From a bacterium (GTDB lineage Bacteria > BMS3Abin14), in assembly GCA_029210545.1 (NCBI GenBank), contig JARGFV010000001.1, positions 15,542-79,541 on the forward strand: a DNA stretch of 64,000 nt. The letters run 5' to 3'. Of the stretch, positions 20,564 to 40,510 are shown piece by piece. Below the pieces are notes generated by a model, which did no database searches, was not told the origin of the DNA, and worked only from the letters and a program-made list of their open reading frames with translations. Both the position numbers and the translations under genes were made by a program. Numbering within the stretch: position 1 is the first letter of the stretch; each line of letters begins with the position of its first letter.

Positions 20564-23356
20564 CTATTCCCTATTCCCCCTTCCCCATTCTTTTTTTAAC
20601 CCCACGGTCTTGTACATGAAATTCCTGAACCTGGTCATCGCCTCCCCCTCCTCGCGGCTGTCTGCAGGCAGGGCGCCGAGATGGCGGGCGGCCCCTCTCA
20701 CCCCTCCCCCCTCGGCAAGGGCCAGCCTGTAAATTTCCAGGACAGTCCCGCGAGTCAGGTCCCGGGACATGAATGGGATGTGGACGAGCTCCCAGAAATC
20801 GCCCGCTCCCTTGCGGATCTGCCCGTAGATCGCCGCGGCGTCTCCCTGGACATTCTTGCCGTCAAGGGTGGAGAGGGAAAGAAACCTCTGGATCTCGTCC
20901 ACCCCCACGATCCCGTCATCGCTTTCGAAGAGAGCTCCCTGCAGGATGGTCACAAGCTGGCGGATATTTCCGGGGAAGTCGAGATGGGAGATAAACTCCT
21001 CGGCCTCCGGCGTGATGACGGGCGGCGCGCCCCCGGCTGAATAACTCGCATGGAGACGACCCAGGAAGTGTTTGGCCAGATCGGGGATGTCCTCCCGCCT
21101 GTCCCTGAGGGAGGGAACCCGGAGGGTCATCTCGCTGAGCCGATGGTAAAGATCCTCCCGGAAGGCACCCCTTGCGATCTCCCTTGCCAGGTCCCGGTTG
21201 GTGGCGGCGACAAAAACGACCCTGCTGAGCCGGACCTTGGTTCCTCCCAGCCGTGAAAACTCTCCCGAATCCAGGAAGCGCAGCAGCTGGACCTGGGTCT
21301 TGAGATCAGCGTCGCCGATCTCATCGAGGAAGACCACCCCTCCGTCCGCCTCCTCGAGGATTCCCGTCCGGTCGACATGGGCACCTGTATAGGCCCCCTT
21401 CTGGTGCCCGAACAGTTCAGTAAAGGTGAGATCTCCACTGAAAGCGGCGATATTGGTTTTGCGCAGGGGCAGTTCCAAAGCACCCCCGCCCAACTTTCTG
21501 AACTTTTCGTTGACCAGGCTGTACAGGTTGTTGAACACGAACTCCTTGCCGGCCCCCGTCTCCCCCGTTATGAGAAGGGTCGGCAGCCCCAGCTCCAGTT
21601 CCTTCTCTTTACCGCGGCTCCAGTTAAGGAGCCTGTTGGTCAAAGGTTCGGCCAGCCTGCTGATCCGCTTGACCAGGAGCTGCGAGTGGGCGCTCTTGCC
21701 GATGATATTCCCGAGCAGGTAGGAACTGACACCGGGGTCCTTGTAGGAGACCTCCTTGCGCAGCCTCGCCACCTTTCCCTCGAGTTCACTGATCTTCAGA
21801 TGGTCGGCGATGCGGTTGGCGATGAGGCGGGATATGAGAAGGAGGATGCGCTGGTGTTCGACAGTGAAATAGGCCCGACGGTGGCTGTCCAGGTTGACCA
21901 CTCCGAGGACCGATTCACCTAACCTGATGGGGACCGCGAGTTCCGAAGCCACGTCAGCGGCAAGGTTCCGGTAGAACCCTCCCCTGGCCGTTTCGGCATC
22001 CGTATCCGGACAAAGGTACGGTTTTCCCGTGAAAGCCACATACCCCGTCAGAGAGCGTTCCTCGGCAGGGAGTTCCTCACCACCCACCCTCAGATCGGGG
22101 ATCTTCGCCTTTCTCCAGTCACGGGATTTGCCCCCCACCAGCCGCCCTTCGGCGTCATCGACGACAAGCCACTTCTCCTGGTTCCGTTCGGTCACCAAAG
22201 CGATGGAGCCCGATTCGGCGCCTACCAACTCCACAGCGCGGGAGGCGACCTTGCCCAGGAAGACCGGCATGGGAGCGTCCTCGGCGAGAAGCTCCTCGAT
22301 CTCCGAAAGGACACGTATTTCGAGGTGTCCCACCGCGAAGTCAGTGATACCTGCCGCCAGGGAACTCGAATGGCTCATGAGGAGTTTGAGTTCCGGCTCG
22401 GTGAACCTGTGGGGGCGCTTCGTAAAATAGTTGATGACGCAAGTCACCTCGCCCCCCTCCCCGGAGACGGGGATCATGAGGAGGGTGCGCAGGGAAAGCC
22501 TCTTGAACACCTCCCACCGCTCGAACTCCTCTGCCAGGATATCCTCGAAAAAAAGGACCTGGGGGGCACCCGGGCGCCGGAGGACGCGGTCGCCATCGGG
22601 CATGACCAGGCGGGAAAGGAGGCTTTTGCCCTCGAGGAGGCTGATTCTCTCGAGGGTCTCGTAGATCTGGAGATCCGACGGGTCCCGGGAGGCGGCAGCC
22701 AGGATCTCCATGTACCCCCCTCTCTCCCGCTTGAGGACTTCGGGCACCGGAGACTGCGCCGATATCAGGACCGATGTCATATCGATGGCAAGGTCGATCT
22801 CGAAGGCACCTTTGAGAAGTATCCTGGCGGCATCCCTTTTCCTGGACCGGTCCAGCTGCCGGCTGAGCATGATCCGCCTGTTGAACCGGTGGGCCCTGGC
22901 GAGAATGGGCATGATCCTATTGAGGAGCTGCCGCAGTTCCTGCTTCATGTCCGACAAGAGGGCATGACTCTCGGCGGCGTCCACGGTCAGGGCACCGATG
23001 CAGTTGCCTGCATCCACGAGGGGGAAAACCGTCGCCACAGACAGGCCGCGCCGTTCGTACCACTCCCGGTGGAGTTCGTCACTGCCCTCCCCGAGGGGGG
23101 CATCCGTCACGATCTTCGATTCCAGGAACGACCGGACGAGGGGGTTCTCCCGTCTCTGGATAGGGATACGGGCTCCCTTCCTCTCCAGTTCTCCCTCCGG
23201 CGTGTAAAGGCACAGGAGAGCGCCCTCCCGCATATCCTCCAGGTAGACACGGATCGAGGGTACCCCGGTTCTCAGGGTCACCTCCTTGACCAGGTAGTGA
23301 AGGATGTCGAGAAGGTTCTCCTTGTCGAAGGAAAGGATCTGGTCAACGAAGGACAT
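20564..23356 (-). CDS. GAF-domain AAA+ regulator of the sigma54-activator type
   Basis: About 930 residues. Two or three GAF-like sensory regions span about 1-540 (FPLVDAGNCIGALTVDA, LMIPVSGEGGEVTCVINYFT, ELAVPIRLGESVLGVVNLDS). The AAA+ domain has Walker A GETGAGKE (about 595), a GAYTGA loop (about 654, instead of GAFTGA), Walker B GGVVFLDEIGD (about 672) and the sensor region RVVFVAATNRDL. The C-terminal tail (GGGVRGAARHLGALPADSRE) only weakly resembles a Fis-type helix-turn-helix, so DNA binding is doubtful. Start ATG 23356 follows GGGAG and overlaps the M23 gene by 14 bp. It ends inside a pyrimidine-rich repeat zone. Confidence 0.85.
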   Translation of the reverse strand: MSFVDQILSFDKENLLDILHYLVKEVTLRTGVPSIRVYLEDMREGALLCLYTPEGELERKGARIPIQRRENPLVRSFLESKIVTDAPLGEGSDELHREWYERRGLSVATVFPLVDAGNCIGALTVDAAESHALLSDMKQELRQLLNRIMPILARAHRFNRRIMLSRQLDRSRKRDAARILLKGAFEIDLAIDMTSVLISAQSPVPEVLKRERGGYMEILAAASRDPSDLQIYETLERISLLEGKSLLSRLVMPDGDRVLRRPGAPQVLFFEDILAEEFERWEVFKRLSLRTLLMIPVSGEGGEVTCVINYFTKRPHRFTEPELKLLMSHSSSLAAGITDFAVGHLEIRVLSEIEELLAEDAPMPVFLGKVASRAVELVGAESGSIALVTERNQEKWLVVDDAEGRLVGGKSRDWRKAKIPDLRVGGEELPAEERSLTGYVAFTGKPYLCPDTDAETARGGFYRNLAADVASELAVPIRLGESVLGVVNLDSHRRAYFTVEHQRILLLISRLIANRIADHLKISELEGKVARLRKEVSYKDPGVSSYLLGNIIGKSAHSQLLVKRISRLAEPLTNRLLNWSRGKEKELELGLPTLLITGETGAGKEFVFNNLYSLVNEKFRKLGGGALELPLRKTNIAAFSGDLTFTELFGHQKGAYTGAHVDRTGILEEADGGVVFLDEIGDADLKTQVQLLRFLDSGEFSRLGGTKVRLSRVVFVAATNRDLAREIARGAFREDLYHRLSEMTLRVPSLRDRREDIPDLAKHFLGRLHASYSAGGAPPVITPEAEEFISHLDFPGNIRQLVTILQGALFESDDGIVGVDEIQRFLSLSTLDGKNVQGDAAAIYGQIRKGAGDFWELVHIPFMSRDLTRGTVLEIYRLALAEGGGVRGAARHLGALPADSREEGEAMTRFRNFMYKTVGLKKEWGRGNRE

Positions 23357-24677
23357 CAGCATCTCCCCCGTTTTCAGCGACCTGCCCGGCAAGACCACCC
23401 GGAAGCTGCTGATCAAGTTCCCGGACAACGGCCTTGAACTGTTCAAGATCCGCCCCTGGCACACTTGTGGCTCTCGGTACGCTGATCCTCCGGGGGTCCA
23501 CATATTTGTTGTTCCGGTACATGGCGAAGTGAAGGTGAGGGCCGGTTGCGCGCCCGGAGCTCCCGACGTACCCGATGACCTGCCCCTGCCGCACCTGGGT
23601 GCCCACTTTCATACCTGACGCGAAGCTGTTCATATGGGCATAGGCTGAGGAGTACACCGAGTTGTGCCGGATCTTGATGATCCGGCCGTTGGCTTCATCC
23701 CGCTTTATCATGACCACCTTCCCGTCACCGATAGACATGATCGGTGTCCCGGTGGGTGCCGCGTAATCCACACCCAGGTGGGGCACTACCTTGCCGGTCA
23801 CAGGATGAAGCCGACGGGCGGAGAACCCGGAACTGATCCTTTGGAACCGGAGGGGTACCTTGAGGAACTGTTTTCTGAGGCTGCCCCCTTCCTCATCGAA
23901 ATAATCTTCCAGCCCGCTCCCCGGACTGTAAAGGAACGCCCTGTGAGTGGTTTTGTTGTTGACGAACCTGGCGGCCTCGATCCTTCCGTACCTGACGAAT
24001 TCACCGTCCCGGTAGTATTTGTCGACCACAACCGCAAAGGAATCTCCGTTCCTCAAGTCCCTGAAAAAATCCACCTGCCACGCGAATATATCTGCGAGGT
24101 CCATAGCCAGGGCCGGCTTCTCACCGATGGATTCCACCGCGGCGAACAGGGAATCCTCGATAACCCCGGAGATGGGCTCCCGGACGATTTCATACGGTAT
24201 GGGTTCGATCGAGATCACCGGGTCTCCCTCACCGAACGCCACCCTTATGAACCTCATGTCATCCGGTTCGTACTGATATTCGACAAGCTGCTCCTCTTCG
24301 TAATGGAGCCGGTAGGTTCGACCGGCCACGAGACTCGACGGCCTGATGCCATCGACCCTGGTCCCGGCGATCTGGAGGATCTCAGGATCCGGAACACCGT
24401 CGGCCTTGAGGATGTCGTAAAGAGTGTCTCCTCTGCGGACCACCTTGTTCGTCACCGATATGACGGGTTCCGGTTCGGCGGCGGAGGGAGCCTCCCCGGC
24501 TACAACGTCGGTGATAAGGGGGCCGGAAGGCTGCATGATACGGGCCTGGGGAGAAAAGGCCGGCCTGCTCACACACAGAACGCCAAGACCGAGAACAGCC
24601 AGCACGAGATAACGGGAACGGACCCGGGGCCGGTCCCTCAGGTGGGTATTGCGTTTGGGCAGCGGGTTATGGATCAC
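23343..24677 (-). CDS. M23 family metallopeptidase with LysM/OapA-like domain
   Basis: A 444-residue murein endopeptidase-like protein. It has a membrane anchor or signal (about 22-42, YLVLAVLGLGVLCVSRPA), a LysM-like segment (VVRRGDTLYDILKADGV), a middle region (DIFAWQVDFFRDLRNGDSF, typical of the family) and the M23 zinc domain with HLGVDYAAPTGTP and the GPHLHFAMY active site. Zinc ligands are complete. GTG 24677 overlaps the stop of the preceding gene by one base (TAGTG). It likely cuts peptidoglycan crosslinks in the periplasm. Confidence 0.93.
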   Translation of the reverse strand: MIHNPLPKRNTHLRDRPRVRSRYLVLAVLGLGVLCVSRPAFSPQARIMQPSGPLITDVVAGEAPSAAEPEPVISVTNKVVRRGDTLYDILKADGVPDPEILQIAGTRVDGIRPSSLVAGRTYRLHYEEEQLVEYQYEPDDMRFIRVAFGEGDPVISIEPIPYEIVREPISGVIEDSLFAAVESIGEKPALAMDLADIFAWQVDFFRDLRNGDSFAVVVDKYYRDGEFVRYGRIEAARFVNNKTTHRAFLYSPGSGLEDYFDEEGGSLRKQFLKVPLRFQRISSGFSARRLHPVTGKVVPHLGVDYAAPTGTPIMSIGDGKVVMIKRDEANGRIIKIRHNSVYSSAYAHMNSFASGMKVGTQVRQGQVIGYVGSSGRATGPHLHFAMYRNNKYVDPRRISVPRATSVPGADLEQFKAVVRELDQQLPGGLAGQVAENGGDADVLR

Positions 24678-24964
24678 TATTCCCAGACCTTTTCGGCCAC
24701 GAACAGGGCGACGATGGTTTCCCGGTCCCCGTCGTCTTTATCCTGGAGGTACCCGTAGAAAACCTCTTCCAGCTCCCTTAACGCCATATCGTGGACCTTC
24801 ACGATGGGATAAAAACCGGGCGTGGCCTCGGGGAGGGTCACGGAGAGCATGTTCCGGACTGCCAGGCCGCGGATGGCCCCGATGGCGTAGTCCCGGCCGT
24901 ACCCCGCCAGTATCTCTCGTACCGACCGCAGGAGTTCATCGCGCCCTCCCTTAATTTGCGCCAC
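24677..24964 (-). CDS. Conserved-looking small protein of unknown function
   Basis: About 95 residues, soluble and slightly acidic, with no signal peptide. It starts VAQIKGGRDELLRSVREIL and ends YLQDKDDGDRETIVALFVAE. I do not recognise the family. It lies inside a chain of overlapping genes (overlap of 14 bp with the lipoprotein gene upstream, 1 bp with the M23 gene downstream), which supports it being real. GTG 24964 with GGGGAA upstream is the likely start. An earlier start at 25006 would give a larger overlap. Confidence 0.7.
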   Translation of the reverse strand: MAQIKGGRDELLRSVREILAGYGRDYAIGAIRGLAVRNMLSVTLPEATPGFYPIVKVHDMALRELEEVFYGYLQDKDDGDRETIVALFVAEKVWE

Positions 24965-25976
24965 CGTCTTCCCCTTTGATCCTTTCCAGGCTCTCAAGGC
25001 GCGCATCCACTTCCTTCAGGTAGGTTCCCAGCTTTTTGTTTCCAGGATCAAGGTCATAGGCTGCCTCCCACACATCCCTTGCCTTGACGAGTTTGCCGGC
25101 TGAAAAAAGCTTCACGCCCAGGAGCCTTGCAAACTCCACTACTTCGGGAGTGGTACCGTCATCCGGCCTTGAAAGGACGAGAACGTAACGGACATGACCG
25201 GCGGCCACATCGATGTCGCCCTTCTGCTCGGCCTCACGGGCAACCAAGAACCTCTGGGCGACGAGATCGAGCCTTCGCCGGCCAACCTGCTCGAGCATCT
25301 CCTCCCCCCGGGTCCCGAGGCTTGTAGAGGCGCCGCTCTCGGTAAGGAGCTTTTCGGCATCATCGAACCGGCCGGCCTTCATATGCTCCTCGGCCTGGGC
25401 CAGGACCTTCCTGACGTCGAGCTCCTGGCGGGCTTCCCCCATGGCAACCTGGAGCCTGTCGGCCTCGGCTTGAAGCGCCTTGTCATCAGGCGCCAGCGCC
25501 TGTGCCTCACCGATCCGTTTCAGGGCGCCGTCAAGGTCCCCAAGCGATTCCAGGTACTGGGCTTCACCCTTCAGGCCGTTGATCCCTGCCTCAATGACAT
25601 TGTCCAGGTTTTTCATGAGGTTCTGGACCCAGTAATATCTGGGGTAGATCTGGAGGGCCTTTTCCAGGTTGGCCCGGGCCGAGAGGAGGTTCCCCTCTTT
25701 CCTTCTCTTGAAAGCTTTCCGGACAAAGTTGTCGGCACGATCCACCTTGGAGCGGGAGTAAGAGACCCTCTGGGCAATATTCTCCTGGCATGTCCGGTCA
25801 GACCGCACCAGTTCGTCGTAGGCATCGGCGGCAGGCTTGTGCTCACCAGTGCGGGAGAGGGTCAAGATGCGGCTGCACTCTGACCGGCGTCCCGCACCGG
25901 CGCCAACGAGGGCGCAACCCGTTGCCGAGAGAAGGAAGACGGCCGCCACCGCCGCGATCAGCAGCTTCTGGCTCAT
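24951..25976 (-). CDS. TPR-like lipoprotein
   Basis: A 341-residue protein with a lipoprotein signal (MSQKLLIAAVAAVFLLSATG, Cys21 as lipidation site) and a helical repeat body resembling tetratricopeptide repeats (NLLSARANLEKALQIYPRYY, GDLDGALKRIGEAQALAPDD, AGRFDDAEKLL, LVKARDVWEAAYDLDPGN). Such lipoproteins scaffold envelope complexes. Start ATG 25976 has GGGAGGTGGG upstream and overlaps the HD-GYP stop as ATGA. The neighbouring M23 peptidase suggests a role in the same envelope process. Confidence 0.85.
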   Translation of the reverse strand: MSQKLLIAAVAAVFLLSATGCALVGAGAGRRSECSRILTLSRTGEHKPAADAYDELVRSDRTCQENIAQRVSYSRSKVDRADNFVRKAFKRRKEGNLLSARANLEKALQIYPRYYWVQNLMKNLDNVIEAGINGLKGEAQYLESLGDLDGALKRIGEAQALAPDDKALQAEADRLQVAMGEARQELDVRKVLAQAEEHMKAGRFDDAEKLLTESGASTSLGTRGEEMLEQVGRRRLDLVAQRFLVAREAEQKGDIDVAAGHVRYVLVLSRPDDGTTPEVVEFARLLGVKLFSAGKLVKARDVWEAAYDLDPGNKKLGTYLKEVDARLESLERIKGEDGGAN

Positions 25977-27337
25977 CCCACCTCCCGGCATATGTCCTCA
26001 ACGATCCCCTCGCCGTCGAGCTGACTGAAAAGCTCCACAAGATGGGGGTCGAACTGTTTTCCCTTTCCCTCATCGATCCGGAACAACGCTTGGGCCTTGG
26101 TAAGAGCCTTCCGGTACGGCCTTGTCGTAGTCATGGCATCGAAGGCGTCGACCAGGAGGATGATGCGGGCAGGCAGGGGGATCTCATCTGCCTTTAAACC
26201 GTCAGGATAACCGGACCCGTCGAAATGTTCGTGGTGGTGCCGGACATACAGTCCGACCTTGTGCAGGGATGACAGGGGGTTGAGGATCCTGGCTCCGATC
26301 TCGGGATGGCCCTTCATCTGGAGGGTCTCTCCAGCGGTGAGGGGGCCGACCTTTCCCACGACACCCGCCTCGACCCCTATCTTGCCGACGTCGTGGAGGA
26401 TGGCCGCCAGCTCCAGTTCCCCGAGCTGGACCTCGTCCATATCCAGGCGCTCACCCATGGCGACAGAGATCCGCCCCACCCTGTCACAATGACCTCTTGT
26501 ATAAGCATCCTTGGCTTCCACAGCAGCGGCCAGAGCGCTTATGGTCTCCTTGAAATTGCGCTCGATCTGGCGTCTTGCGGTATGCAGCTGGCCGACCATC
26601 TCGTTAAAGTGCCTCGAAAGACGGCCGACCTCATCATGGCTGATGTCCTGCACCCGGACGGTCAGATCCCCCGATCCAAGTGCCCTCACTGCTTCCTCCA
26701 GCCTCTCCACTCTTTTGACGTGAACCCCTGTAAGGAAAAAGGTCCCCACAACACCAAACGCGGTCCCCAGGCTCAGCGGGAAAAGCAGCCCGATGGCGGT
26801 GCTCCTCATCGCTTGCCGGATGTGGCCGGCGCCCAGGGCGACCACCGCTGTTCCCACCCGCACATCTTCGACCATAATGGGCATCGATGACTGGATGATA
26901 TCCGTCCCGGGGTGGGAGACCCCTTGATCCAGCACCTCTCCCGTCCGTGCGGGGTTGGAATGGTAAAGGATCTTGCCCTGATGATCGGTGAGGTAGGCGT
27001 AGGAGACATCCCTGTCGAGGGTGACTGACTCAACGATGGGCCCGAACCTCAGATCGTCCTGCGCGAGAAGAGGATCGCGCGCGTTGACTGCCAGGTTTGC
27101 GGCAAGGGAGCGGGCTCTCTTGTCCCCTTCGCGGGCCAGGAAAACCCACTGGTAACGGAGGAGAGCCAGGAAAACGAGACCGGTTACAAGGAAAAGCAGA
27201 ACGGAAAAAGATAGTGCCACCTTCCATCTCAAGGAGAAAACGAGGCCCCTGGAAATCTGGCCGGGGGGACTGAACTGATCTGCCGAACCGGGCGGCATGA
27301 AACCTGTCCTGTCCATGAGGTTCTTTTTCTCGACCAA
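25973..27337 (-). CDS. HD-GYP cyclic di-GMP phosphodiesterase with periplasmic sensor
   Basis: A 454-residue membrane protein. TM1 is at about 38-62, followed by a dCache/sCache-like periplasmic part (about 65-170, VSYAYLTDHQGKILYHSN), TM2 at about 180-203, HAMP at about 205-255 and an HD-GYP domain at about 265-450. The metal site is intact (AILHDVGKIG) and the GYP motif is complete (HHEHFDGSGYPDGL). It should degrade cyclic di-GMP. The TTG start at 27337 with GGAGGGTGGG upstream is favoured, and ATG 27316 is an alternative. It heads an overlapping five-gene set, linking cyclic di-GMP turnover to a murein peptidase. Confidence 0.92.
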   Translation of the reverse strand: MVEKKNLMDRTGFMPPGSADQFSPPGQISRGLVFSLRWKVALSFSVLLFLVTGLVFLALLRYQWVFLAREGDKRARSLAANLAVNARDPLLAQDDLRFGPIVESVTLDRDVSYAYLTDHQGKILYHSNPARTGEVLDQGVSHPGTDIIQSSMPIMVEDVRVGTAVVALGAGHIRQAMRSTAIGLLFPLSLGTAFGVVGTFFLTGVHVKRVERLEEAVRALGSGDLTVRVQDISHDEVGRLSRHFNEMVGQLHTARRQIERNFKETISALAAAVEAKDAYTRGHCDRVGRISVAMGERLDMDEVQLGELELAAILHDVGKIGVEAGVVGKVGPLTAGETLQMKGHPEIGARILNPLSSLHKVGLYVRHHHEHFDGSGYPDGLKADEIPLPARIILLVDAFDAMTTTRPYRKALTKAQALFRIDEGKGKQFDPHLVELFSQLDGEGIVEDICREVG

Positions 27338-27588
27338 CCCACCCTCCTCGATCTGTTCTTATCCCCTCGAAAAACGTTTCTTCGAACCATTTTACGAGAC
27401 GGGGCTAATGTAGCCGTTCTTCTCCTCACTGTCCCTCTCCACGGCGTGGGAGAGGGTCGGAGTAATCACGCCATCGGCGTGACTACCTCTGGTCCTTCCC
27501 CATCAAGGGGGAGGAAAAACAGGGAAGATTGACTATTCTGACCCCCACCCAAGGATGCACGCTTTGCGCATAACCCGATTGATGAACT

Positions 27589-28167
27589 CTATTCGAGGCC
27601 ATCAATCTTCCCTCTGATCACGGTCTCCAGGGTGGTGTTGCCCACCGTGAAGCGGTCTCCGGTTCCAAGCTTTACGGTCATGACCCTTTTTCCCTGGTAA
27701 AAGGTCCCGTTGGTGCTCCCAAGGTCCTCGATAACAAAACGGTCCCCGAAAACCCGGACATGGCAATGCCGACGGGAGACTTCGGGATCGTTCAGGTTGA
27801 TGTCGTTACCGGTCCGCCCCACCGTAACCCGGGGCGCCGTGAGAAGGAACTCTTCTCCCGTCTGGACATCCCTGAAAAGCGCTTCGTCCTCCCCCCGGAT
27901 GAACGGGTCGGTTCCTGACACCTCTTCCAGAAGCGCTGACACTTCTGAGCCGCTCTGGTCGACCTCGGAGAAATCGTAAGCAATGGTCTGGCCGAAATCG
28001 GCACCAGACGACCTGGTCAGGGGAACCGAGGCACCCGGGCTGCTTCCCCTGGGAGGGATAAGGATGACCTGGCCGCAGTTGGGGCAGTTCGCCCTTGCCC
28101 CCGAGGGGGGGATTTTCTCGTCGGCGATCCTGTAGCTCGTGTTACAGGTGGGGCATGTGAGTTTCAA
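27589..28167 (-). CDS. Zinc-ribbon plus FHA domain protein
   Basis: A 192-residue cytoplasmic protein. Residues 1-38 are an MJ0042-type zinc ribbon (CPTCNTSYRIADEKIP, then CPNCGQVIL). Residues 100-190 are a forkhead-associated domain (VTVGRTGNDINLND, EVSRRHCHVRV, EDLGSTNGTFYQGK), which binds phosphothreonine peptides. TTG start with GGAGG five bases upstream. A 250-bp spacer separates it from the HD-GYP gene, so co-transcription is possible but not shown. No Ser/Thr kinase gene occurs in the window. Confidence 0.9.
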   Translation of the reverse strand: MKLTCPTCNTSYRIADEKIPPSGARANCPNCGQVILIPPRGSSPGASVPLTRSSGADFGQTIAYDFSEVDQSGSEVSALLEEVSGTDPFIRGEDEALFRDVQTGEEFLLTAPRVTVGRTGNDINLNDPEVSRRHCHVRVFGDRFVIEDLGSTNGTFYQGKRVMTVKLGTGDRFTVGNTTLETVIRGKIDGLE

Positions 28168-28275
28168 ACGCGCCTCCCGCGACAGTTAATGGTTTACAGT
28201 TTACTGTTCACCGTTGTTTTCTTTTAACAAACACGCTCTGACTGTAAACCGTATACCGTGAACTGTTAACTTGAC

Positions 28276-31062
28276 TTACCTGTAAATCTCGGTAGTCGAT
28301 TTCGTAAAAGTCCGGCCGTCGAACTTGTACACTCCTGCCTCGGTCCCGAACCACTTGTTGTCGGCAAGATCCAGGGCCACCACGTTGACCGTCACTTTGG
28401 GCATCCCCTGGGCATCCGAGAAACGGACCCACTTGCTGCCGTCGAACCGGGCCGTTCCCTGCCCAAGGGTCCCCACCCAGACGTTCCAGCGTCCATCCAC
28501 AGCCACTGACAGGACATGGTCGGAGGGCAGGCCGTCAGCGGTAGTGAAAATCCGGGTCTTTTTCCCTTCCTGTCTCAGGAGACCGGCATCCGTCCCGATC
28601 CAGAACACGCCGTTGGCGTCCATCGTCATGGAGGTCACGTTGTTGCTGGGCAGCCCCTGCTGCATTGTCCGCACGGTGAACTTGCTTCGGTCATAAAGAG
28701 CCAGTCCCTTGTCCGTACCGAACCAGATGTTGTCGAGAGGGTCGACGTACACCGAATTGATCACATTGCTTGGAAGACCGTCACTGTAATCGTATGTCAC
28801 CCAGTTGTTCTTCCCGTCGAACTGGGAAACTCCGCGGTCGGTTCCCAACCAGATGAAACCGAGGCGATCAACCGCAAGCGCCTTGACCGTGTTACTTATG
28901 AGGCCCTTGGCGGAGGTGTAGTTCTTACGGCTTTTGCTTTCGATATCCACCCTGAAAAGCCCCTCCGTTCCGCCGACCCACAGGTAGTCACCCTGGATGA
29001 CACTTGGGTGGATGAAAACGCCGTTGGAATTGTCCCGCCAGATCCCGCTGGAGAGCCGGTACGCTGCCGTTTTTACCTTCTCCCGATTTCCCGCCTTGTC
29101 CACAGCGAAATATTTCACCGTGATATCGTCGTTGAGAGAGAGGGGCTTTGTGTAGGCGGGTGCCTGGTCTGACGGCTGCGAACCGTCCAGGGTATAGCGA
29201 ATCCTTGCGCCCTCCTCGGATTTCAACTCCAGGATAATGGGTGGGTTGTATTCCCCGGGAGCAGGAAATGGCAACGTAAACGGCGCTATCGTGTCGATGA
29301 AATATTCAGCGACCTGAGCCGGCTCCTTGTTCCCGGCGCTATCCACCGAATAATAGGAGAGCTTCTCCGTGCGGTCTACCACAAAAGGTCCCGCATAGGC
29401 TGTAAAATCGTTCACCCCGGCCCGGCGGACAAATATGGTGCCCTGCTTCTCCGAAACGAGGGTGACGCTCACCGGACGGTTGAAGTAACCGGGGTCCGGC
29501 TCGATGCGTGTGGAGGGCGGCGTCGTGTCGAAGCTGTACCGCTCGACCTGGATCTCCTCACGGTTGCCTGAATCGTCGGTCCCGTAGAACTTGAGGACCG
29601 TATCCTTTGTGATACGGACGGGACCCCGGTATCTCGGGGAAGCTTCTGTGGGTGAGATCCCGTCTGTAGTGTACCGGATCACAGCACCCTCTTCACCGAC
29701 AAGACTGACTGTGACCTCGCCCGAGAAAGTGCCTCCAGGCGGCTGTGCGGCGGTATCCGGCGGTGTGCTGTCCAGAACGTATTCCTGGCTCCGGGGCTGG
29801 CTCCGGTTACCGACCCTGTCCACTGCGAGATAGGTCAGAACTGTATTTTTCTCGATGGTTATCGGACCCTGGTAAGGGGACGACCTGTCGGAAGGAGTGG
29901 TGCCGTCAAGGGTGTAGAAGATCTCCGCCGGTTCAGACGCCTCTATCTTGACCCTGATCCTGCCCGAATAGTCACCCCCCGGGGGACGGGGCTGGACGGT
30001 TGGGGGCTGCGTGTCGATGACATATTGGGCCGTCACAACGGGACTTCGGTTCCCGGCGGCATCCACGGCCATAAAAGAAACCACAGTATCCGCTGCCAGC
30101 CTGAGGGGGGACCGGTAAACAGGGGAGGACAGCGTGGCCTCCCGGCCATCCATCTCGTAATGGATCTGTCCCCTTTCGCTGGAGGTCAGTGTGACCACGG
30201 TCGGTTTTCCGAACGCTCCTGCCGGCGGCTTGGCAATCACAGTGGGAGGCTGGCTGTCAATGACGTAGTTCTCCTCGCGCACATCTTCCCGGTTGCCTGC
30301 CTCGTCGATGGCGAAGAACCGCAGGACACCGCTGCGGACGAACTGCAGCGGGCCGGAGTACCGCGGCGAACCTGTGGACGGCCTGCTGCCGTTGATGGTG
30401 AAGTGGATGGTAGTGCCCTCTTCGCCGGACAGGGACACCGTGACGGGAGAATTGAAAAGCCCACCTGACGGTTCCGCGAGGGTCACGGGCTTTGTGGAAT
30501 CGAGGGTGATGAGGTACGTTTCCTTGCGGGCCTCTTCCCGGTTGCCCGCTTCGTCCGTAGCGAAGAAACGCAGGGTCGTGTCCCTTCTCATGGCTACGGG
30601 GGAAGTGTAAGTCGATGATCCGGGGCCGGGTTCGGTGCCGTCTGTCGTGTAGGAGATGACGGCTCCCTCCTCGGACTTGAGCCGAACGGACACGGGGTGG
30701 AAGAACTTCCCTCCTGACGGCAGGGCCGTGGTCACAGGCGGTTCTGTGTCAAGGCGGACGGCGTAACTGGCAGACTGGACAGTTGACCTGTTACCGAACC
30801 TGTCCTCGGCGAAATAGCCCACCCTTGTGTCCCGCTTGATCCGAACAGGGGAAAGGTATGGCATGGGCTGCCCATCATCCAGTGCGATGAAGACCGATGC
30901 TCCCGGTTCACTGGACAAGACGACGGATATGACCTCGTGGTACTTTCCCGGAACGGGCTGGATCTGGACCTGGGGAGGAGTCCGATCGATGGGCCAGAGC
31001 CAGGCCAGAACTGCCAGGAGAGCAAACAGAATGGCCAGAGACAGGTAACTTTTGCCTTTCAT
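28276..31062 (-). CDS. Exported protein with eight chitobiase-like repeats and a beta-propeller
   Basis: About 928 residues. An N-terminal membrane segment (about 5-25, YLSLAILFALLAVLAWLWP) is followed by eight repeats of about 78 residues with the core YTTDGTEP...TLRFFATDEAGNRE, a pattern of the chitobiase/beta-hexosaminidase C-terminal-like domain (CHB_HEX_C_1). The last 250 residues hold ligand-binding-propeller repeats of the two-component-regulator type (AVDRLGFIWLGTDRGVSQFD, IWFGTDKGLALYD, FWIGTDAGLL). No kinase domain is attached. ATG 31062 follows GGGAGG. It is directly downstream of a ParM-like gene (overlap of 4 bp) and is paralogous to the protein at 38246. The role is unknown. Surface binding or assembly is an inference. 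Confidence 0.82.
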   Translation of the reverse strand: MKGKSYLSLAILFALLAVLAWLWPIDRTPPQVQIQPVPGKYHEVISVVLSSEPGASVFIALDDGQPMPYLSPVRIKRDTRVGYFAEDRFGNRSTVQSASYAVRLDTEPPVTTALPSGGKFFHPVSVRLKSEEGAVISYTTDGTEPGPGSSTYTSPVAMRRDTTLRFFATDEAGNREEARKETYLITLDSTKPVTLAEPSGGLFNSPVTVSLSGEEGTTIHFTINGSRPSTGSPRYSGPLQFVRSGVLRFFAIDEAGNREDVREENYVIDSQPPTVIAKPPAGAFGKPTVVTLTSSERGQIHYEMDGREATLSSPVYRSPLRLAADTVVSFMAVDAAGNRSPVVTAQYVIDTQPPTVQPRPPGGDYSGRIRVKIEASEPAEIFYTLDGTTPSDRSSPYQGPITIEKNTVLTYLAVDRVGNRSQPRSQEYVLDSTPPDTAAQPPGGTFSGEVTVSLVGEEGAVIRYTTDGISPTEASPRYRGPVRITKDTVLKFYGTDDSGNREEIQVERYSFDTTPPSTRIEPDPGYFNRPVSVTLVSEKQGTIFVRRAGVNDFTAYAGPFVVDRTEKLSYYSVDSAGNKEPAQVAEYFIDTIAPFTLPFPAPGEYNPPIILELKSEEGARIRYTLDGSQPSDQAPAYTKPLSLNDDITVKYFAVDKAGNREKVKTAAYRLSSGIWRDNSNGVFIHPSVIQGDYLWVGGTEGLFRVDIESKSRKNYTSAKGLISNTVKALAVDRLGFIWLGTDRGVSQFDGKNNWVTYDYSDGLPSNVINSVYVDPLDNIWFGTDKGLALYDRSKFTVRTMQQGLPSNNVTSMTMDANGVFWIGTDAGLLRQEGKKTRIFTTADGLPSDHVLSVAVDGRWNVWVGTLGQGTARFDGSKWVRFSDAQGMPKVTVNVVALDLADNKWFGTEAGVYKFDGRTFTKSTTEIYR

Positions 31063-32087
31063 CAAGCCTCCCTTTCAGGTGGTCCGTCATAATAGTAACG
31101 GCCGTACTTGACGTAACCCGACACGTTTCCCAGTCGGGGATCATCCTGTGTCTTGAGGAGCGCCAGTTCTCCGCGGATCAGGGGCTGAAGATATTCGAAG
31201 AGGGCCTCTCCCCCTCCGCCGGCGAGAAGGACCACATCCAGGTCCCAGTCATCGACCCAGATCCTCTCCATGTCGCTCACAACGGCCGTCGCCAGCCTGC
31301 CGAACACCTCGTTCTTGACCTTGGTCAGGTCGTATTCGGCCCCCCTGATCTTGATACTTCCCTCCCGGACAGCGTCGTATAGCCGGTAGATCTCAACGTT
31401 CACACCGCTCATCTCGTTGAGAGCCTCGGAGATGAACTGGAACCCCTTGGAGATGCCGGTATCGGTTGTCCGGCTGCCCCTCTCGGAGTGCCTGAGCCCC
31501 TTGCATACGGTAAAATCGGTTGTTTTGAACCCGATATCGACGACCCCTATCTTCTGCCGGGCCATGTCCGGTCTCAGGAGGGTACCGTCCTCACGGAAAA
31601 GGTAGTCGACGAGGCTGCCATAAGGCTGGGGGATCACCTTCACGCGGTTGACGGACAGTGCCATCTCCCGGCTTTCAGAGCCGTTGTGAACCTTCAGTTC
31701 ATGTTCACCGGAAAGGGCAGCCGTCAGCTTGTCCTTGTACTCCATGTAGTAGCCCACGGGAAGGCCGGTCACGACGTTAACCGGGACCCTGCTCGGGGCG
31801 ATCTTGGCCAGCCCGGCCAGAGCGAGGGTCTTGAACTGCTGGGTGACCATCTGTGCCTGATCGAGGGTGAACTGCCGGACCCGGGACTCCGACTCGGCAA
31901 GATCCCCCACGAAAAAAGAGCGGTCCCCCAGGCTCATGTGCAGGCCGGAAACACCTTCCCCCGAAAAAAAGTTCTCGTCCATGGACCTCGGCTGAGGCTC
32001 ACCTATTATCGACTTGAACAAGACGGTAGTCTCACCGTCCGTGGCCTTGGTGAAACCGAAACCGACGTCAATTCCTACCATCAGCAT
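31062..32087 (-). CDS. ParM/StbA-like actin-family ATPase
   Basis: About 341 residues. Actin-fold nucleotide motifs are clear: phosphate 1 GIDVGFGFTKATDGE at the N terminus, phosphate 2 IGVVDIGFKTTDFTV, and the adenosine loop VVLLAGGGGEALFEYL. This is the pattern of plasmid-segregation ParM/StbA and related chromosomal proteins. ATG 32087 with GGGGAGG upstream fits best. It overlaps the large unknown gene (20 bp) and the repeat/propeller gene (ATG overlap), so the three are translationally coupled. There is no parC-like repeat and no ParR, which argues against plasmid partition. I infer a filament or switch working with its two neighbours. Confidence 0.85.
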   Translation of the reverse strand: MLMVGIDVGFGFTKATDGETTVLFKSIIGEPQPRSMDENFFSGEGVSGLHMSLGDRSFFVGDLAESESRVRQFTLDQAQMVTQQFKTLALAGLAKIAPSRVPVNVVTGLPVGYYMEYKDKLTAALSGEHELKVHNGSESREMALSVNRVKVIPQPYGSLVDYLFREDGTLLRPDMARQKIGVVDIGFKTTDFTVCKGLRHSERGSRTTDTGISKGFQFISEALNEMSGVNVEIYRLYDAVREGSIKIRGAEYDLTKVKNEVFGRLATAVVSDMERIWVDDWDLDVVLLAGGGGEALFEYLQPLIRGELALLKTQDDPRLGNVSGYVKYGRYYYDGPPEREA

Positions 32088-33939
32088 AAGTGCCCTCCCC
32101 GGATCCGGCGCTGCGAACCGTGTCCATGACATCGTCACTGATCCTGTACTGCTGCTGGAATTCCCTCTCCAGTTCCTCGATCCTCATCATGTCGATGCCG
32201 CTGCTGTCGATGAACTCGTCCCTGGCTGACGCGTCCCTGGACTTGATCGCCCGGGGAAGGACCGAACCGAAATAGATCCGCTCCGTCTTCAGGTCCTCGA
32301 GGGTCTGGCGGAAGAAGATCTCCGGAACATCCGGCCTCACCAGTCCCCTCGAGACAAGCATCTTGCGGACATCCGCGATAAAGGAAGTTTCCTCCTCGAA
32401 TCCCTTGAGAGAACGTCCGAACTTCTTCAGCCACCTGTCCATTGCGGTCTTGACGATCCTGTATTCACGTTCCTCGCGAACAAGGTCCTCCATGAAGATG
32501 GTGACATCCTGGAGGGAACGGTCGCCTGTTTCAATGCTGGAGACCCCCTCGAATAGAAATTCGACCTTTTTCCGCCCGTACTGCGGGAGGTAGAGGTTCT
32601 TCATGACCGGAACGATGAAAAGATCATGAAAAAGGTTTTCCTGGACCTCGTCGAAGATTTTTTTATTCAGGAGAAGGCTGCGCAGCTTGTCTTCCGGCAG
32701 TTTCTCCTCTTCGTGGAACGCGAGCCGGTTCACGGTATGATAGACGTTGTCGAAACGGTCGAAGAAAGTGACGATGTTACCGAACTCCTCCAGGCTGTCG
32801 GTGCTGCCCGTCTCCATGCTGAGTTCGTCGCACTCCTTTCCCACCTCGATGAGGATGCGGTCAAAAGCCGACTCCCGCTGTTCAAGAGCAAGGAGCTTGG
32901 ACTTGAGGAGCTTGAGGAGATCCTCTTTTTCAATGCGCTCACCAACCTGCCTGGCCTGGATAAGGATCGCTTCCAGAACCGCGCGGACCTCCACGAGGTA
33001 AGCCGGTTCGTCAACAGCGAGGATCTCGCGGTCGCCGATGAGCTTTTCATCCAGGGAGTTGAGCAGGTTGACGGGGATCCCCTTTCGAAGCGCCACCGTC
33101 CTGATCCGCGAGATGCGGGCGCGGTCGTCAAAGAGAACCTCGTCCCTGCCCCTGATCTGGACGAGGACCGAACGGTACTCCTCAACCACCTGCCTGTTTC
33201 CCGGGGACCTGTACATGACGTCGATCTTCATCCGTTCCTGGGAATAGGGATCGATAGCCAGGCTGGCGGCCAGGTCTTCCAGGGCGGCAGTCTCCTCATC
33301 GCCTATGGTCTGTGACGCCGCGTACAGATCCTCGATCTTGCGGTAAAAAAGCAGGTGGGAACGGTTGACGAACTTCATGAGGAAGAAAACCGATGCCAGC
33401 TTTGACCAGTGTGTCCTGAGTTCGTCAACGATCCGGGAGTCATCCTCATCCTTGTTAAGGGGAAACCGCTTCAACGAACGCCCGAGAATGCGGAGGATCT
33501 CTTCCTGCTGTTTTTTCAGGGGGGCCGGGGAAAGGAACTGGACGAAGAAGTAATAATTGAAGACCGCATGACCGCGCAGGAATATATGCCGGTAATCGAC
33601 CCGGGCCGTGGTGTCGTCGGAAAAGATGATCTTTCCGGGATCATCGTGCCGCACGCCGAAAACCACCAGACGGTTGATCACATCCTGCTTGACCAGATCT
33701 TCAATGGGCTCATCCACACCGAACATGTAGGGGCAAAAGGTCCCTCCATTGCCCGTATGGACAAGGGTCTCCGGACCGAGAAGGAACTCGTTGCCGCCAA
33801 GGAAAAACCTGTGGTGGGCCACGCCTTCTCTCTCCACCAGTTCGTGGAAATAGCGGCCGTCCAACCCTTCGCCGGACAAGGTCGCGAAGAACTCCTTGTC
33901 GCCGCCCACTTCGCCGTGGATCCTGAGATCTTTTATCAT
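32068..33939 (-). CDS. Large soluble protein of unknown function, partner of the ParM-like gene
   Basis: About 623 residues, without signal peptide or membrane segment. It is rich in charged helices, especially in the second half (DLLKLLKSKLLALEQRESAF, RIEELEREFQQQYRISDDVM), with predicted helix/coiled-coil character. The N-terminal third has a beta-rich look (VGGDKEFFATLSGEGLDG, RHIFLRGHAVFNYYFFVQFL). I do not recognise the family. ATG 33939 was chosen as the first sensible start. The ribosome site is weak. It is the first gene of a three-gene coupled unit with the actin homologue, so a filament adaptor or regulator is plausible. Confidence 0.8.
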   Translation of the reverse strand: MIKDLRIHGEVGGDKEFFATLSGEGLDGRYFHELVEREGVAHHRFFLGGNEFLLGPETLVHTGNGGTFCPYMFGVDEPIEDLVKQDVINRLVVFGVRHDDPGKIIFSDDTTARVDYRHIFLRGHAVFNYYFFVQFLSPAPLKKQQEEILRILGRSLKRFPLNKDEDDSRIVDELRTHWSKLASVFFLMKFVNRSHLLFYRKIEDLYAASQTIGDEETAALEDLAASLAIDPYSQERMKIDVMYRSPGNRQVVEEYRSVLVQIRGRDEVLFDDRARISRIRTVALRKGIPVNLLNSLDEKLIGDREILAVDEPAYLVEVRAVLEAILIQARQVGERIEKEDLLKLLKSKLLALEQRESAFDRILIEVGKECDELSMETGSTDSLEEFGNIVTFFDRFDNVYHTVNRLAFHEEEKLPEDKLRSLLLNKKIFDEVQENLFHDLFIVPVMKNLYLPQYGRKKVEFLFEGVSSIETGDRSLQDVTIFMEDLVREEREYRIVKTAMDRWLKKFGRSLKGFEEETSFIADVRKMLVSRGLVRPDVPEIFFRQTLEDLKTERIYFGSVLPRAIKSRDASARDEFIDSSGIDMMRIEELEREFQQQYRISDDVMDTVRSAGSGEGTYADGRN

Positions 33940-34304
33940 GGGTTCAGATCCATGTTGTTTACGGGATTCAAGACCATTCGCACCCGAGCCAGACCTCATT
34001 TCATTGAGCACCAGTGGCCGGAACAGTCAAATTCCGACCTCCTTCGACAGGCCCGGGGGTCGTTTCCAGCCTCCACCTGATCGGCTGCATTCAAGTGGCT
34101 ATTAGAGAACCTCGTAAAAGCCTCTTCGAGCCATTTTACGAGCCCATAAAACTTTTCTGATGTTATATCATTTTCGGGTGGAAGTCTTGAGGTTAAATCC
34201 CGCCCGGATGGTTGCCGCACTTGACATGGCACCGGTTCATGATAGTAATATCTCCACCCGTTTGCCGCAGGGGAAAATGCACATAACGTGGAAAGGCTGC
34301 CCTT

Positions 34305-34691
34305 ATGCTCGACCGGCCCCAAAAAAAGATCCTCGTCATCGAGGATGACCCTGATATCAGGAGCCTGACAGGATTCATTCTCCGGGACGACTACGAGGTG
34401 ATCTCCAGCGAGGACGGGCGCAAGGGGATGGAAAAGGCCAGGGAGGAAAGGCCTGACCTTGTTCTCCTGGACATCTACATGGCCGGGTTATCCGGGTTCG
34501 AGGTTTGCCGTATGCTCAAGGAGGAACCGGAAACGGCCTCGATCCCGGTCATCATGCTGACCGCCGGGGCACAGAAAGATGAGGTGTCGGAAGGGTACGC
34601 CTCGGGAGCCGACGATTACATCATCAAACCTTTTGAACCGGGAGAGCTGATTGAAAGGATCGAAAAACTACTTTTGAGATCCAGGATCTAA
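34305..34691 (+). CDS. Single-domain response regulator
   Basis: A 128-residue CheY-like receiver with a full phosphorylation site: acidic residues D14-D15, acceptor D56 (LVLLDIYMAG), T86 (VIMLTAG) and K108 (DYIIKPFEPGEL). No output domain. The last codons and the stop lie within a 7-bp periodic tract (GATCCAG-like, about 34675-34706), so the C-terminal tail (LLLRSRI) may derive from repeat sequence. No kinase gene is adjacent. The HisKA_2 kinase at 5314 lacks a partner in this window, but a link is not shown. Confidence 0.93.
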   Translation: MLDRPQKKILVIEDDPDIRSLTGFILRDDYEVISSEDGRKGMEKAREERPDLVLLDIYMAGLSGFEVCRMLKEEPETASIPVIMLTAGAQKDEVSEGYASGADDYIIKPFEPGELIERIEKLLLRSRI

Positions 34692-34777
34692 AATCCAGGA
34701 TCCGGAAGACCACTCCCCACAAAATCAAAGACATACCTATCCAGACTGATCCCATGGGATGCCCTGGATCTTGGATC

Positions 34778-35644
34778 TTAGATCCTGGGCCTTGGATGGG
34801 AACTTTCCGCTATCAGGAAAACAAGATCACGAACCACCTTTGCCGCCACCGCCCCCGACGGACCCCCCATCCCCGCCAGCGGACAGTATTCCACCACGTC
34901 AGCGCCAACGATCCTGGCACCCCTCAGGGGCATCAGGGCATCGCGCAGCTGAGGATAGCTCAGACCGCCGGGCTCAGGTGTCCCGGTTTCGGCCATGACA
35001 GAAGGATCCAGGACGTCAAGGTCCACGCTGAGGTAAACAGGCCGCTGACCGACGATTCCGGCAAGGTCACCGGCATCGGCGAGAAGCATTCCGTGCTTCC
35101 TGGAAAAAAACCATTCTTCCCTGGTTCCGGACCGGATACCGTACTGACAAAGGCCCCCCGGTCCCACCAGGTCGAACACTCTCCTCATGACAGTGGCATG
35201 GGAGTGCTTCCGCCCTTCGTAATCGTTCCTGAGGTCCATGTGCGCATCCATCTGGATAACCACGAGGTCAGGACAGGTTGCGAGACACCCCTCCACCGCC
35301 GGAAGGGTAACGAGGTGTTCACCCCCCATAAGGAGAGGGGATTGCCCGGCGGCCACAGCCGCACCTACAGTTTTTCTGACACATTCCGAAACCGCGGTCC
35401 AGGCGGATGCGGGAGCGACAATGTCCCCGGCATCCGCCAGGCTTAACTCCTCCAGGTCGGCATCGAACACGGGGCAGTAGCTCTCCAGGACAGCAGACCA
35501 CATCCTGATGGCCCCCGGGGCAAACCTGGCTCCCGGACGGAAGGAGGCCGTCTGGTCGAAAGGCACACCCATGAGAACGATATGAGAGCTGTCCACAGCC
35601 CCGTCGGCGGACAGGTAACCGGAAAGGCCCGTACGCAATGTCAT
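34778..35644 (-). CDS. speB: Agmatinase, ureohydrolase family
   Basis: A 288-residue manganese enzyme converting agmatine to putrescine and urea. Metal-binding motifs are complete: LMGGEHLVTLPAVEG, VVIQMDAHMDLRND and YLSVDLDVLDPSVMAETGTP. It overlaps the spermidine synthase stop codon by 4 bp. It is the last gene of speD-pdaD-speE-speB, which supports agmatinase over other ureohydrolases. The stop codon region falls inside a heptameric tract (TGGATCT-like, 34763-34800), so the last residues (SSHPRPRI) may be repeat-derived. Confidence 0.94.
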   Translation of the reverse strand: MTLRTGLSGYLSADGAVDSSHIVLMGVPFDQTASFRPGARFAPGAIRMWSAVLESYCPVFDADLEELSLADAGDIVAPASAWTAVSECVRKTVGAAVAAGQSPLLMGGEHLVTLPAVEGCLATCPDLVVIQMDAHMDLRNDYEGRKHSHATVMRRVFDLVGPGGLCQYGIRSGTREEWFFSRKHGMLLADAGDLAGIVGQRPVYLSVDLDVLDPSVMAETGTPEPGGLSYPQLRDALMPLRGARIVGADVVEYCPLAGMGGPSGAVAAKVVRDLVFLIAESSHPRPRI

Positions 35645-36965: not shown

Positions 36966-37007
36966 GCGGACTCCTCCCGGGTTGTTTGTGATGAACAGGA
37001 AAGCAGG

Positions 37008-37412: not shown

Positions 37413-37427
37413 GATCTGTCTCCTCCA

Positions 37428-38245: not shown

Positions 38246-40348
38246 CTATGGCGGAGTCTCCACAATCCACTTCCCGTCGGAATAGCGTGTCACTCCCGTC
38301 CTCGTAGCGATCCAGACCTCACCATCCGGATCGGGGGCGATGAGAACGATCCCGGTCCCTGGAATGCCATCCTCTTTCGTATACGTTTTCCACTTTTCCC
38401 GGTCGTAGACGGAAACACCTTTGGGAGTGCCCACCCAGGTGTTCCAGTCTGAATCCACGGCAACCGTCCTGATCTCGTCGTCGACCATACCGCTTTCCTT
38501 TGTAAAGATATGCCACTCCCTCGCGGGAGTATATTTGGCAAGCCCTTTCCGGGTCCCGAACCACCGGTTCCCGGCGTAATCCACAGCGATGCACAAGACC
38601 GTATCGCCGGGCAGACCATCCTTTGCCGTCAGCTTTTCCCTAACGGCTCCGTCCTTGATGCGGACGACCCCCTTTTCCGTGCCCGCCCAGATAGAACCGT
38701 CCCGGTCAACACCCAGGCCGAGCACTTCCCTGGCCGGCAACCCCTCGTCCCTCGTGAAAGTGACGAACCCTTCCCCTTCCCTGAAGCGGTTAAGCCCCTC
38801 GTCGGTGGCGGCCCACAGGTCACCGGCCTCATCGATGACCATATCGTTGACAACGGTCCCCAGAAGTCCCTCCGTATCACCCACGAAGCTCCTGTCCCCC
38901 GACCCGACCCGATACAGGGCCAGACCGGACTCTGTCCCCATCCAGAACGTCTTGCCGTCGGTCACGCTCGGGAGGAGGAAGACACCCCTGGCGTACTTGC
39001 GCCAGACTCCGTTGACCAGGGTATACCTGTGGGTCTGTATCCTCTCCATGTTTCCTGTACGATCAATGGAAAAGAACTTGAGGGTAGTGGGCCTGATGAA
39101 TGTAAAACCGGAAAAGTAGGTGGGGCTTTCGGTATCCGGGTCGTAGCCGTCGAGGGTATAATGGATCCGGGCGCCTTCCTCGGTCCTCAGGGTCACCCTG
39201 ATGGGCGGGGGGTACTCACCACCCAACGGATCGGCTACAGTCACCGGCGCTTCATCATCGAAAAGGTAGGTCTCCTCGTGGACATCTTCACTGTTACCGG
39301 ACTGGTCGGAGGAAAAGAACTTCAGGACCGTATCGTTCCTCAGGACGAGAGGGTCCTTGTAGACGGGAGACTGCTCGCCAGGCTCGGTACCGTTGAGGGT
39401 GTAGAAGACGATGGCCTCCTCGTCGGAAACCGTTATCCTGACCGTCAGGGGAGGCGTGTAAAAGCCTGTGCCCGGATAAGCTTCTGAAAGGGGCGGTTCC
39501 TGATCCAGCCTGTAGAACTCATCGTAAACCCTGCTCCGGTTTCCCCCACGGTCTATCGCCAGGAATTTGAGCCGTGTGCTTTCGGTAAGCCAGAACGGCC
39601 CCTCGTAAAGCTGCGACATCTCTGTAGGATCCGACCCGTCAAGCGAGTAATAGATATCGGCTTCCTCGTCTGCGAAAAGCCTGAGGAGGTCGCCCGACCT
39701 GTAATTGGCGGGCAACGGGCTGACGCTGGCTTTGGGGGGAGTCGTATCCACGAGCCGGTCCGCGAGCCTGAACATGTACGACTCTTCCCGGATCGGCTCG
39801 CGGGAACCGTCCCTGTCAACGGCAAAGAACTTCAGCCTGGTGTCCACGGCAATGCTCAGGGATGTACGGTAGATATCGCTGTCGGTGGAAGGGTCTGAAC
39901 CGTCCATGGTGAAGTAAATGGTGGCATCCTTCCGGGTAGAAAGAGACACCCTGACCTTCTGGTTATAGATCCCTCCCGGTGGGTGCGCTACGGTTCGCAA
40001 CGCATCGGCGGACGGAGATTTCATCCGGATCCTGTAGAACGCCTCCTGGACGCTGCCCCGGCTCCCGTCCCTGTACACCACGAAGTAACGGATAACGGTA
40101 TTGTCTGCGACCCTGATGGGATCTTTGAATACGGGAGAGCCCATGCTGGGTTCCGAACCATCGAGGGTAAAGTAAACCTGGCGGGAAGGGTCGGTCTCGA
40201 AACGGACCTCGATGGAATCAGGATATTCACCGGGGGCCGGCGTCAGGGGGACCTCCTGGGCCACCGCCGGGAGAGGCGCCAGCCAGAGAAATACCGCTGC
40301 AGCCACAACGGTGGTTATCTGCAAAACGGTTCGTTTTGAAAGGTTCAA
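38246..40348 (-). CDS. Secreted protein with five chitobiase-like repeats and a beta-propeller
   Basis: About 700 residues, with a signal peptide (TTVVAAAVFLWLAPLPAVAQ, cleavage after VAQ). Five repeats of about 78 residues follow (VYFTLDGSEP, IYFTMDGSDP, IYYSLDGSDP, VFYTLNGTEP, IHYTLDGYDP), each ending in a LKFFAVDRDGSRE-like strand. A propeller of sensor-type repeats completes it (DLWAATDEGLNRFREG, IWAGTEKGVVRIKDG, RWFGTRKGLAKYT). Paralogue of the protein at 28276 with three repeats fewer. TTG 40348 with GGGAGG five bases before it is the start. An upstream extension lacks a ribosome site. Function unknown. Monocistronic. Confidence 0.82.
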   Translation of the reverse strand: MNLSKRTVLQITTVVAAAVFLWLAPLPAVAQEVPLTPAPGEYPDSIEVRFETDPSRQVYFTLDGSEPSMGSPVFKDPIRVADNTVIRYFVVYRDGSRGSVQEAFYRIRMKSPSADALRTVAHPPGGIYNQKVRVSLSTRKDATIYFTMDGSDPSTDSDIYRTSLSIAVDTRLKFFAVDRDGSREPIREESYMFRLADRLVDTTPPKASVSPLPANYRSGDLLRLFADEEADIYYSLDGSDPTEMSQLYEGPFWLTESTRLKFLAIDRGGNRSRVYDEFYRLDQEPPLSEAYPGTGFYTPPLTVRITVSDEEAIVFYTLNGTEPGEQSPVYKDPLVLRNDTVLKFFSSDQSGNSEDVHEETYLFDDEAPVTVADPLGGEYPPPIRVTLRTEEGARIHYTLDGYDPDTESPTYFSGFTFIRPTTLKFFSIDRTGNMERIQTHRYTLVNGVWRKYARGVFLLPSVTDGKTFWMGTESGLALYRVGSGDRSFVGDTEGLLGTVVNDMVIDEAGDLWAATDEGLNRFREGEGFVTFTRDEGLPAREVLGLGVDRDGSIWAGTEKGVVRIKDGAVREKLTAKDGLPGDTVLCIAVDYAGNRWFGTRKGLAKYTPAREWHIFTKESGMVDDEIRTVAVDSDWNTWVGTPKGVSVYDREKWKTYTKEDGIPGTGIVLIAPDPDGEVWIATRTGVTRYSDGKWIVETPP

Positions 40349-40510
40349 ACGGGCCTCCCGGGGCGAAAAATTGATGGTCCAGATGAGGTCGACGTTGCGC
40401 CATATTAGGGAATCCACCGGCAAATGGCAACGGGAACCCGAAACCAGGGCCTGGTTTCGGGTATGACTCCTCCGGAGAAAAACCGTAATGCGAGGTTATC
40501 CTGTAAATAG

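Follow-up and report, generated by a model that had tools for sequence, protein, structure and literature searches.

A chromosomal ParM-type actin encoded with a TIGR04442 protein, and its possible role in a cytoskeleton of the cell envelope

Among the closest described systems is FcmB-FcmC of filamentous cyanobacteria, in which FcmB, a chromosomal actin derived from ParM, is needed for rod shape, is encoded with a dedicated ParR-like partner, FcmC, and occurs beside MreB (PMC12645912). In a second precedent, the bactofilin BacA is encoded in a cluster with the bitopic M23 peptidase LmdC, which it recruits via the short cytoplasmic tail of LmdC (PMC10945521). The locus described here, within a window of 64,000 nucleotides (the whole stretch of DNA that was analysed), resembles the former in having a chromosomal actin of apparent ParM derivation with a putatively dedicated, co-encoded partner in a genome that also has MreB, but the partner is a 623-residue protein of the family TIGR04442, and the cluster includes genes for exported repeat proteins and for an M23 peptidase. 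The resemblance to BacA-LmdC lies in the clustering of a cytoskeletal gene with a bitopic M23 peptidase, whereas the polymer here is predicted to be an actin and the cytoplasmic tail is weakly conserved. Plasmid ParM-ParR systems (pCBH ParM, PDB 6ixw; other ParMs; PRTRC system protein D) share the actin fold family and the ATP-site motifs. CorM (PDB 9rmi) was recovered as a sequence relative of the actin in a PDB search, and a literature search on CorM and CorMR returned nothing useful.

An ORF check of the window recovered the genes for TIGR04442, the actin and the exported repeat protein PROP1, all on the minus strand, and their order recurs in seven genomes, confirming an earlier sequence-only reading in which the three were described as overlapping (Table 1). 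The actin gene runs from a conserved ATG at 32087 (MLMVGIDVGFGFTK) to a stop at 31062 and shares 20 nt with the TIGR04442 gene, its 358-aa ORF opening further up, at 32138. The first of the two claimed overlaps, of 20 bp, was thus recovered; the second, of 4 bp between actin and PROP1, is obtained only from a TTG start at 31065, and the start conserved among relatives, an ATG at 31062 (TGATG), gives 1 nt. The unit had also been limited to 28276-33939, but on comparison with relatives the conserved cluster reaches well past those coordinates, in the order PROP2, TIGR04442, actin, PROP1, FHA protein, HD-GYP sensor, TPR lipoprotein, 109-aa protein, M23 peptidase and sigma-54-type regulator.

Table 1. 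Coordinates in the window of the genes of the conserved cluster
Feature	Coordinates	Strand	Remarks
PROP2, shorter exported paralogue of PROP1	38246..40423	-	PF13290, PF13287, PF07494
TIGR04442 family protein	32068..33939	-	623 aa; ATG at 33939, stop at 32068
ParM/ALP-type actin-like ATPase	31062..32087	-	341 aa from conserved ATG; PF17989, PF21522
PROP1	28276..31062	-	928 aa; membrane anchor, Ig-like repeats, beta-propeller; PF13290, PF13287, PF07494
Zinc-ribbon and FHA (phospho-threonine-binding) protein	27589..28167	-	PF13717, PF00498
Membrane sensor, sCache-HAMP-HD-GYP-type domain	25973..27337	-	PF17203, PF00672, PF13487; two hydrophobic segments
TPR protein, lipoprotein-type signal (GCA)	24951..25991	-	TPR families; N-terminal alignment
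Conserved 109-aa protein	24677..25006	-	present in relatives; no Pfam match
Membrane-anchored M23 peptidase	23343..24677	-	PF01551 5e-31; PF19425 Csd3_N2
GAF-sigma-54-type regulator	20564..23359	-	start set from relatives; related to NCBIfam 'GPMC system' regulator

The actin matched both expected domains, PF17989 ALP_N at 123.8 bits (8.5e-36) against a gathering score of 26.3 and PF21522 at 59.4 bits (6.7e-16) against 27.8, and its nucleotide site is intact, with the segments DVGFGFTK, PQPYGS, D(I/V)GFKTTD and AGGGG conserved in seven relatives and invariant residues present in D24-K31, D201-D208 and A306-G310 across seven sequences; the earlier label of a ParM-like actin, of ParM/ALP type, is borne out. 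The best match in the PDB was pCBH ParM (2.3e-34), followed by other ParMs and then CorM, but the protein scored below the cut-offs for the ParM equivalog PRK13917 (98.9 bits versus 417), PRTRC_D TIGR03739 (94.0 versus 214.8) and FcmB NF052678 (64.9 versus 300). Assignment as MreB was rejected, as a PF06723 search of the genome matched the true MreB, at 12523-13560 (contig C1:28085-29068; 498 bits), and not this gene. The magnetosome actin Mad28 carries an Asp to Ser change in its phosphate-2 motif (PMC10653835); D201 is invariant in the present family, and a Mad28-type assignment was likewise rejected. A tree with plasmid ParMs, PRTRC-D and MreB consisted mostly of open forks and long branches, so that a clade without plasmid ParMs is neither supported nor contradicted. 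The MreB gene itself is followed by same-strand ORFs of MreC-, MreD-, PBP2- and RodA-like size, a likely rod-shape operon at 8199-13560 in which MreB was checked by profile and the other names come from ORF size.

The 623-residue protein, previously called unknown, belongs to the named but uncharacterised family TIGR04442 (546.8 bits against a curated cut-off of 150, model positions 1-607 of 608), for which a literature search found no paper and a sequence-profile search against the PDB gave no match. Its description as an unrecognised helical protein was accurate for the all-helical remainder, but the family is recognised and the first ~195 residues are beta-rich, as seen in a full-length AlphaFold2 model (32 relatives, pLDDT 85) with a beta-rich head and a long helical body. 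When the head was predicted alone (41 relatives, pTM 0.86), the first 21 Foldseek matches were all PP2C-fold proteins (best E 3.5e-3, probability 0.90), as were the best 50 rows of a VIA-align search, all PP2C-fold or PP2C-like, led by SpoIIE (Z 9.2, 144 residues aligned, rmsd 5.1). The predicted fold resembles that of PP2C, SpoIIE and RsbX phosphatases, from which TIGR04442 differs in that the canonical metal-site motifs (DGxG, (S/T)DG and the D(D/G/N)xx(S/T) type) each occur in at most one of 41 sequences; D81 is the sole invariant acidic residue of the head, D167, E51 and D4 are nearly invariant, and none of 32 members has a Pfam PP2C match. Since these motifs are not conserved, residues 1-195 are taken, on the strength of the models, for a predicted PP2C-like domain that lacks the chemistry of canonical phosphatases; the assignment is structural and is no proof of homology.

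PROP1 has at least seven Ig-like CHB_HEX_C/Fn3-associated repeats followed by C-terminal beta-propeller repeats, and lies next to the actin gene with an N-terminal membrane anchor, in agreement with the earlier proposal of a link between the actin and a large exported protein with repeats. The anchor is a single conserved hydrophobic segment following M(K/R)(G/S)K, which leaves ~4 cytoplasmic residues, so that a direct grip of a filament on PROP1 is unlikely. In three relatives (G001, G002 and G008) the gene immediately upstream of TIGR04442 is PROP2; in the window and in G006 and G007 the two are separated by a polyamine-type block, comprising at 34778-38013 of the window speB-, speE-, pyruvoyl-dependent arginine decarboxylase- and speD-like genes and an XRE-cupin-like regulator, gene names given by reading and not by domain scan. 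Further downstream, the FHA protein retains in all relatives a QT(M/I)xxD(F/Y)x(E/D)(V/I)DQS segment, a candidate phospho-threonine switch. In the membrane-anchored M23 peptidase both catalytic motifs, HxxxD and HxH, are complete. Its basic cytoplasmic tail of ~20 residues is only weakly conserved, with a KRN core, so that direct binding via a tail motif is retained as a suggestion.

Twelve genomes of the small phylum to which the window belongs, all of one family and mostly draft metagenome assemblies, were examined. TIGR04442, actin and PROP1 are contiguous and in the same order in seven genomes, at 53-80% protein identity, which together with the TIGR04442 score is far more than would be expected by chance, and on the single-contig 2.78-Mb genome G003 the triplet is chromosomal. 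Conservation of the neighbourhood of the 623-residue family, raised in the sequence-only reading, was therefore found across seven genomes of one phylum. In G005 and G009 actin and PROP1 are present, the actin of G009 being partial and adjoining a stretch of N. All that is left of the actin in G002 is a 29-codon ORF between TIGR04442 and PROP1 (L039:8520-8740) that keeps the actin start and the stop/start overlap with PROP1; this could be a natural deletion or a draft assembly error, and accordingly either the actin can be dispensed with or the assembly is wrong. The genes from FHA to M23 continue downstream in every relative with long enough sequence, with a disturbed FHA frame in G005, and in G003 the block is kept as far as read, the FHA/HD-GYP pair being tandemly duplicated within it. 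The upstream flank of TIGR04442 is rearranged, with polyamine genes present or absent, while the order inside the unit is constant.

Of 386 genomes surveyed, 16 encode TIGR04442, 10 a close actin and 9 both, a co-occurrence with a Fisher p of 2e-13 that draws on only two lineages and has a lineage-level p of 0.024; outside the family of the window (f1) it rests on one lineage. When every ALP_N actin is counted, the total is 14 of the 386 genomes, including the 10 with a close actin. The other lineage is a second tiny phylum, all three genomes of which encode both proteins, unlinked, with the actin orthologue (46-47% identity) preceded by a TPR-lipoprotein gene, a LysM gene and one whose membrane-anchored product is SPOR-like (SPOR matches under the curated cut-off), and TIGR04442 beside a tilS-like gene. 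PROP1 was sought in this phylum and not found. The sequence-only reading had named a lack of co-occurrence of the three families in other genomes as its refutation; the triplet does co-occur across one phylum, but only actin and TIGR04442 do so in the second, and since both are kept there without PROP1, the core pair is actin and TIGR04442, not actin and the propeller protein, the exported repeat protein being a lineage-specific addition. TIGR04442 is common without actin in Nitrospirota-type, Geobacter-type and other lineages: in the first it and a TPR-lytic transglycosylase gene usually diverge, with zapA/zapB often close by, and in the second it often adjoins genes for a GPMC-type regulator and an MBL hydrolase. 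Among 11 genomes with TIGR04442 and no close actin, an ALP_N match was found only in the Nitrospirota genome G392, and was rejected as an actin, being partial and chance-like. The NCBIfam 'GPMC system' (MBL hydrolase and regulator, in Geobacter-type genomes) shares the TIGR04442 family with the present locus (547 bits), near which a regulator related to that of the GPMC system scores 915 bits against NF038230, under the 1200-bit cut-off; the GPMC loci examined have the MBL hydrolase and, in the Geobacter-type genome G315, also an M6 protease, and G315 lacks an ALP_N actin. In that genome (L060 3094-11734) TIGR04442 lies between the GPMC MBL hydrolase and the M6-domain metalloprotease, beyond which come a FlgM-like gene and that of the GPMC regulator, with flagellar export genes adjoining. 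In G558 a second, short TIGR04442-like protein consists of the helical C-terminal half only (L122:7475-8425; model positions 318-607).

A possible explanation for this arrangement, with about an even chance of being correct and drawn from gene neighbourhood and folds, is that the unit encodes a chromosomal ParM-derived cytoskeleton that organises the cell envelope besides MreB. The actin, with its intact ATP site, would polymerise in the cytoplasm, and TIGR04442, soluble and with a PP2C-like-fold head and helical body, would be its dedicated partner, as adaptor or regulator, because the two co-occur and are coupled in an operon. TIGR04442, acting other than as a canonical phosphatase, and the FHA protein would probably read the Ser/Thr phosphorylation state, the genome encoding five Ser/Thr kinase domains, and the HD-GYP-type sensor may contribute a c-di-GMP signal. 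The membrane proteins, i.e. the M23 peptidase with its cytoplasmic tail and the sensor, might relay the position of the filament to the periplasm, where the peptidase would open peptidoglycan and PROP1 and PROP2 could form a periplasmic or surface scaffold. Such a mode of working would be comparable to that of bactofilin-LmdC or FcmB-FcmC. Envelope organisation is indicated by the M23 peptidase here and by the LysM and SPOR-like genes beside the actin of the second phylum, and the lytic transglycosylase and zapA/zapB genes near TIGR04442 in Nitrospirota-type loci count in its favour.

The ALP_N/ParM family of the actin could instead indicate a ParM system segregating plasmid or chromosomal DNA, but this is very improbable and the earlier judgement that the locus does not match plasmid segregation holds, as the gene is chromosomal, no small ParR-type ORF is present in the unit, the neighbours in all relatives with the unit are TIGR04442 and PROP1, and 27300-34700 contains no iterated, parC-like short repeats, only two-copy families. 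The plasmid homologues retrieved share 22-30% identity with the actin; a small ORF lies directly downstream in five of six plasmid ParM records, as it does for three actin-like genes from other genomes, and the sixth record, that of PRTRC protein D, has a gap of 0.5 kb before the following annotated gene. The sequence-only reading had suggested a filament that positions or assembles a surface structure. An adhesin or motility apparatus with PROP1 and PROP2 as the exported structure would account for these large Ig-repeat/propeller proteins being encoded on either side of TIGR04442-actin, and for TIGR04442 of G315 lying beside flagellar export genes; it is, however, unlikely given the short cytoplasmic stub of PROP1, the retention of actin and TIGR04442 without PROP1 in the second phylum, and a conserved unit without secretion or motility genes, and a role in assembling such a structure finds no specific support, given the stub and neighbours that point rather to peptidoglycan and envelope organisation.

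A monomeric ATPase switch that forms no filament, within an envelope signalling cluster of FHA, HD-GYP, TIGR04442 and the sigma-54 regulator, would fit the predominance of signalling domains, the retention of the neighbours without actin in G002 and the regulators that adjoin TIGR04442 elsewhere. This reading is nevertheless considered quite doubtful: the closest solved relatives of the actin are ParMs, which are known filament formers, and CorM, and the actin is the best conserved of the three proteins among relatives (71-80% identity), as expected of a polymer, although this is no proof. That the genes are merely co-transcribed and functionally unrelated is improbable: bacterial operons can be mixed and the flanking polyamine-type genes are clearly unrelated, but the order of the unit is constant while its flanks rearrange, the FHA/HD-GYP pair is duplicated inside the cluster in G003, and actin and TIGR04442 co-occur unlinked in the second phylum. 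As precedents exist for its main parts (PMC12645912, PMC10945521), the envelope-morphogenesis cytoskeleton is favoured over the surface structure and the non-filament ATPase.

The envelope cytoskeleton would suggest a second, MreB-independent system organising the cell envelope in a little-known bacterial group, with ParM-type actins recruited for this purpose in lineages besides cyanobacteria, possibly from a single origin common with these. A more tentative proposal, conceivable but on balance doubtful, is that of a further cytoskeletal actin family, separate from MreB, FtsA, MamK, ParM and FcmB, which in two small phyla, and defined by its PP2C-fold/helical partner, would couple local remodelling of peptidoglycan to Ser/Thr phospho-signalling. 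If the envelope cytoskeleton is real, TIGR04442, an orphan family also present in Geobacter-type bacteria and Nitrospirota, would gain its first structural and functional hypothesis, one that is directly testable.

A sigma-54 promoter search of the window gave 6 matches where chance alone would give 7.1, and at the unit there was no convincing one; sigma-70 matches were close to expectation, and an Rfam search of 20000-41000 found no element. At 53623-54903 the window carries a sigma-54 activator with an N-terminal FHA domain of its own.
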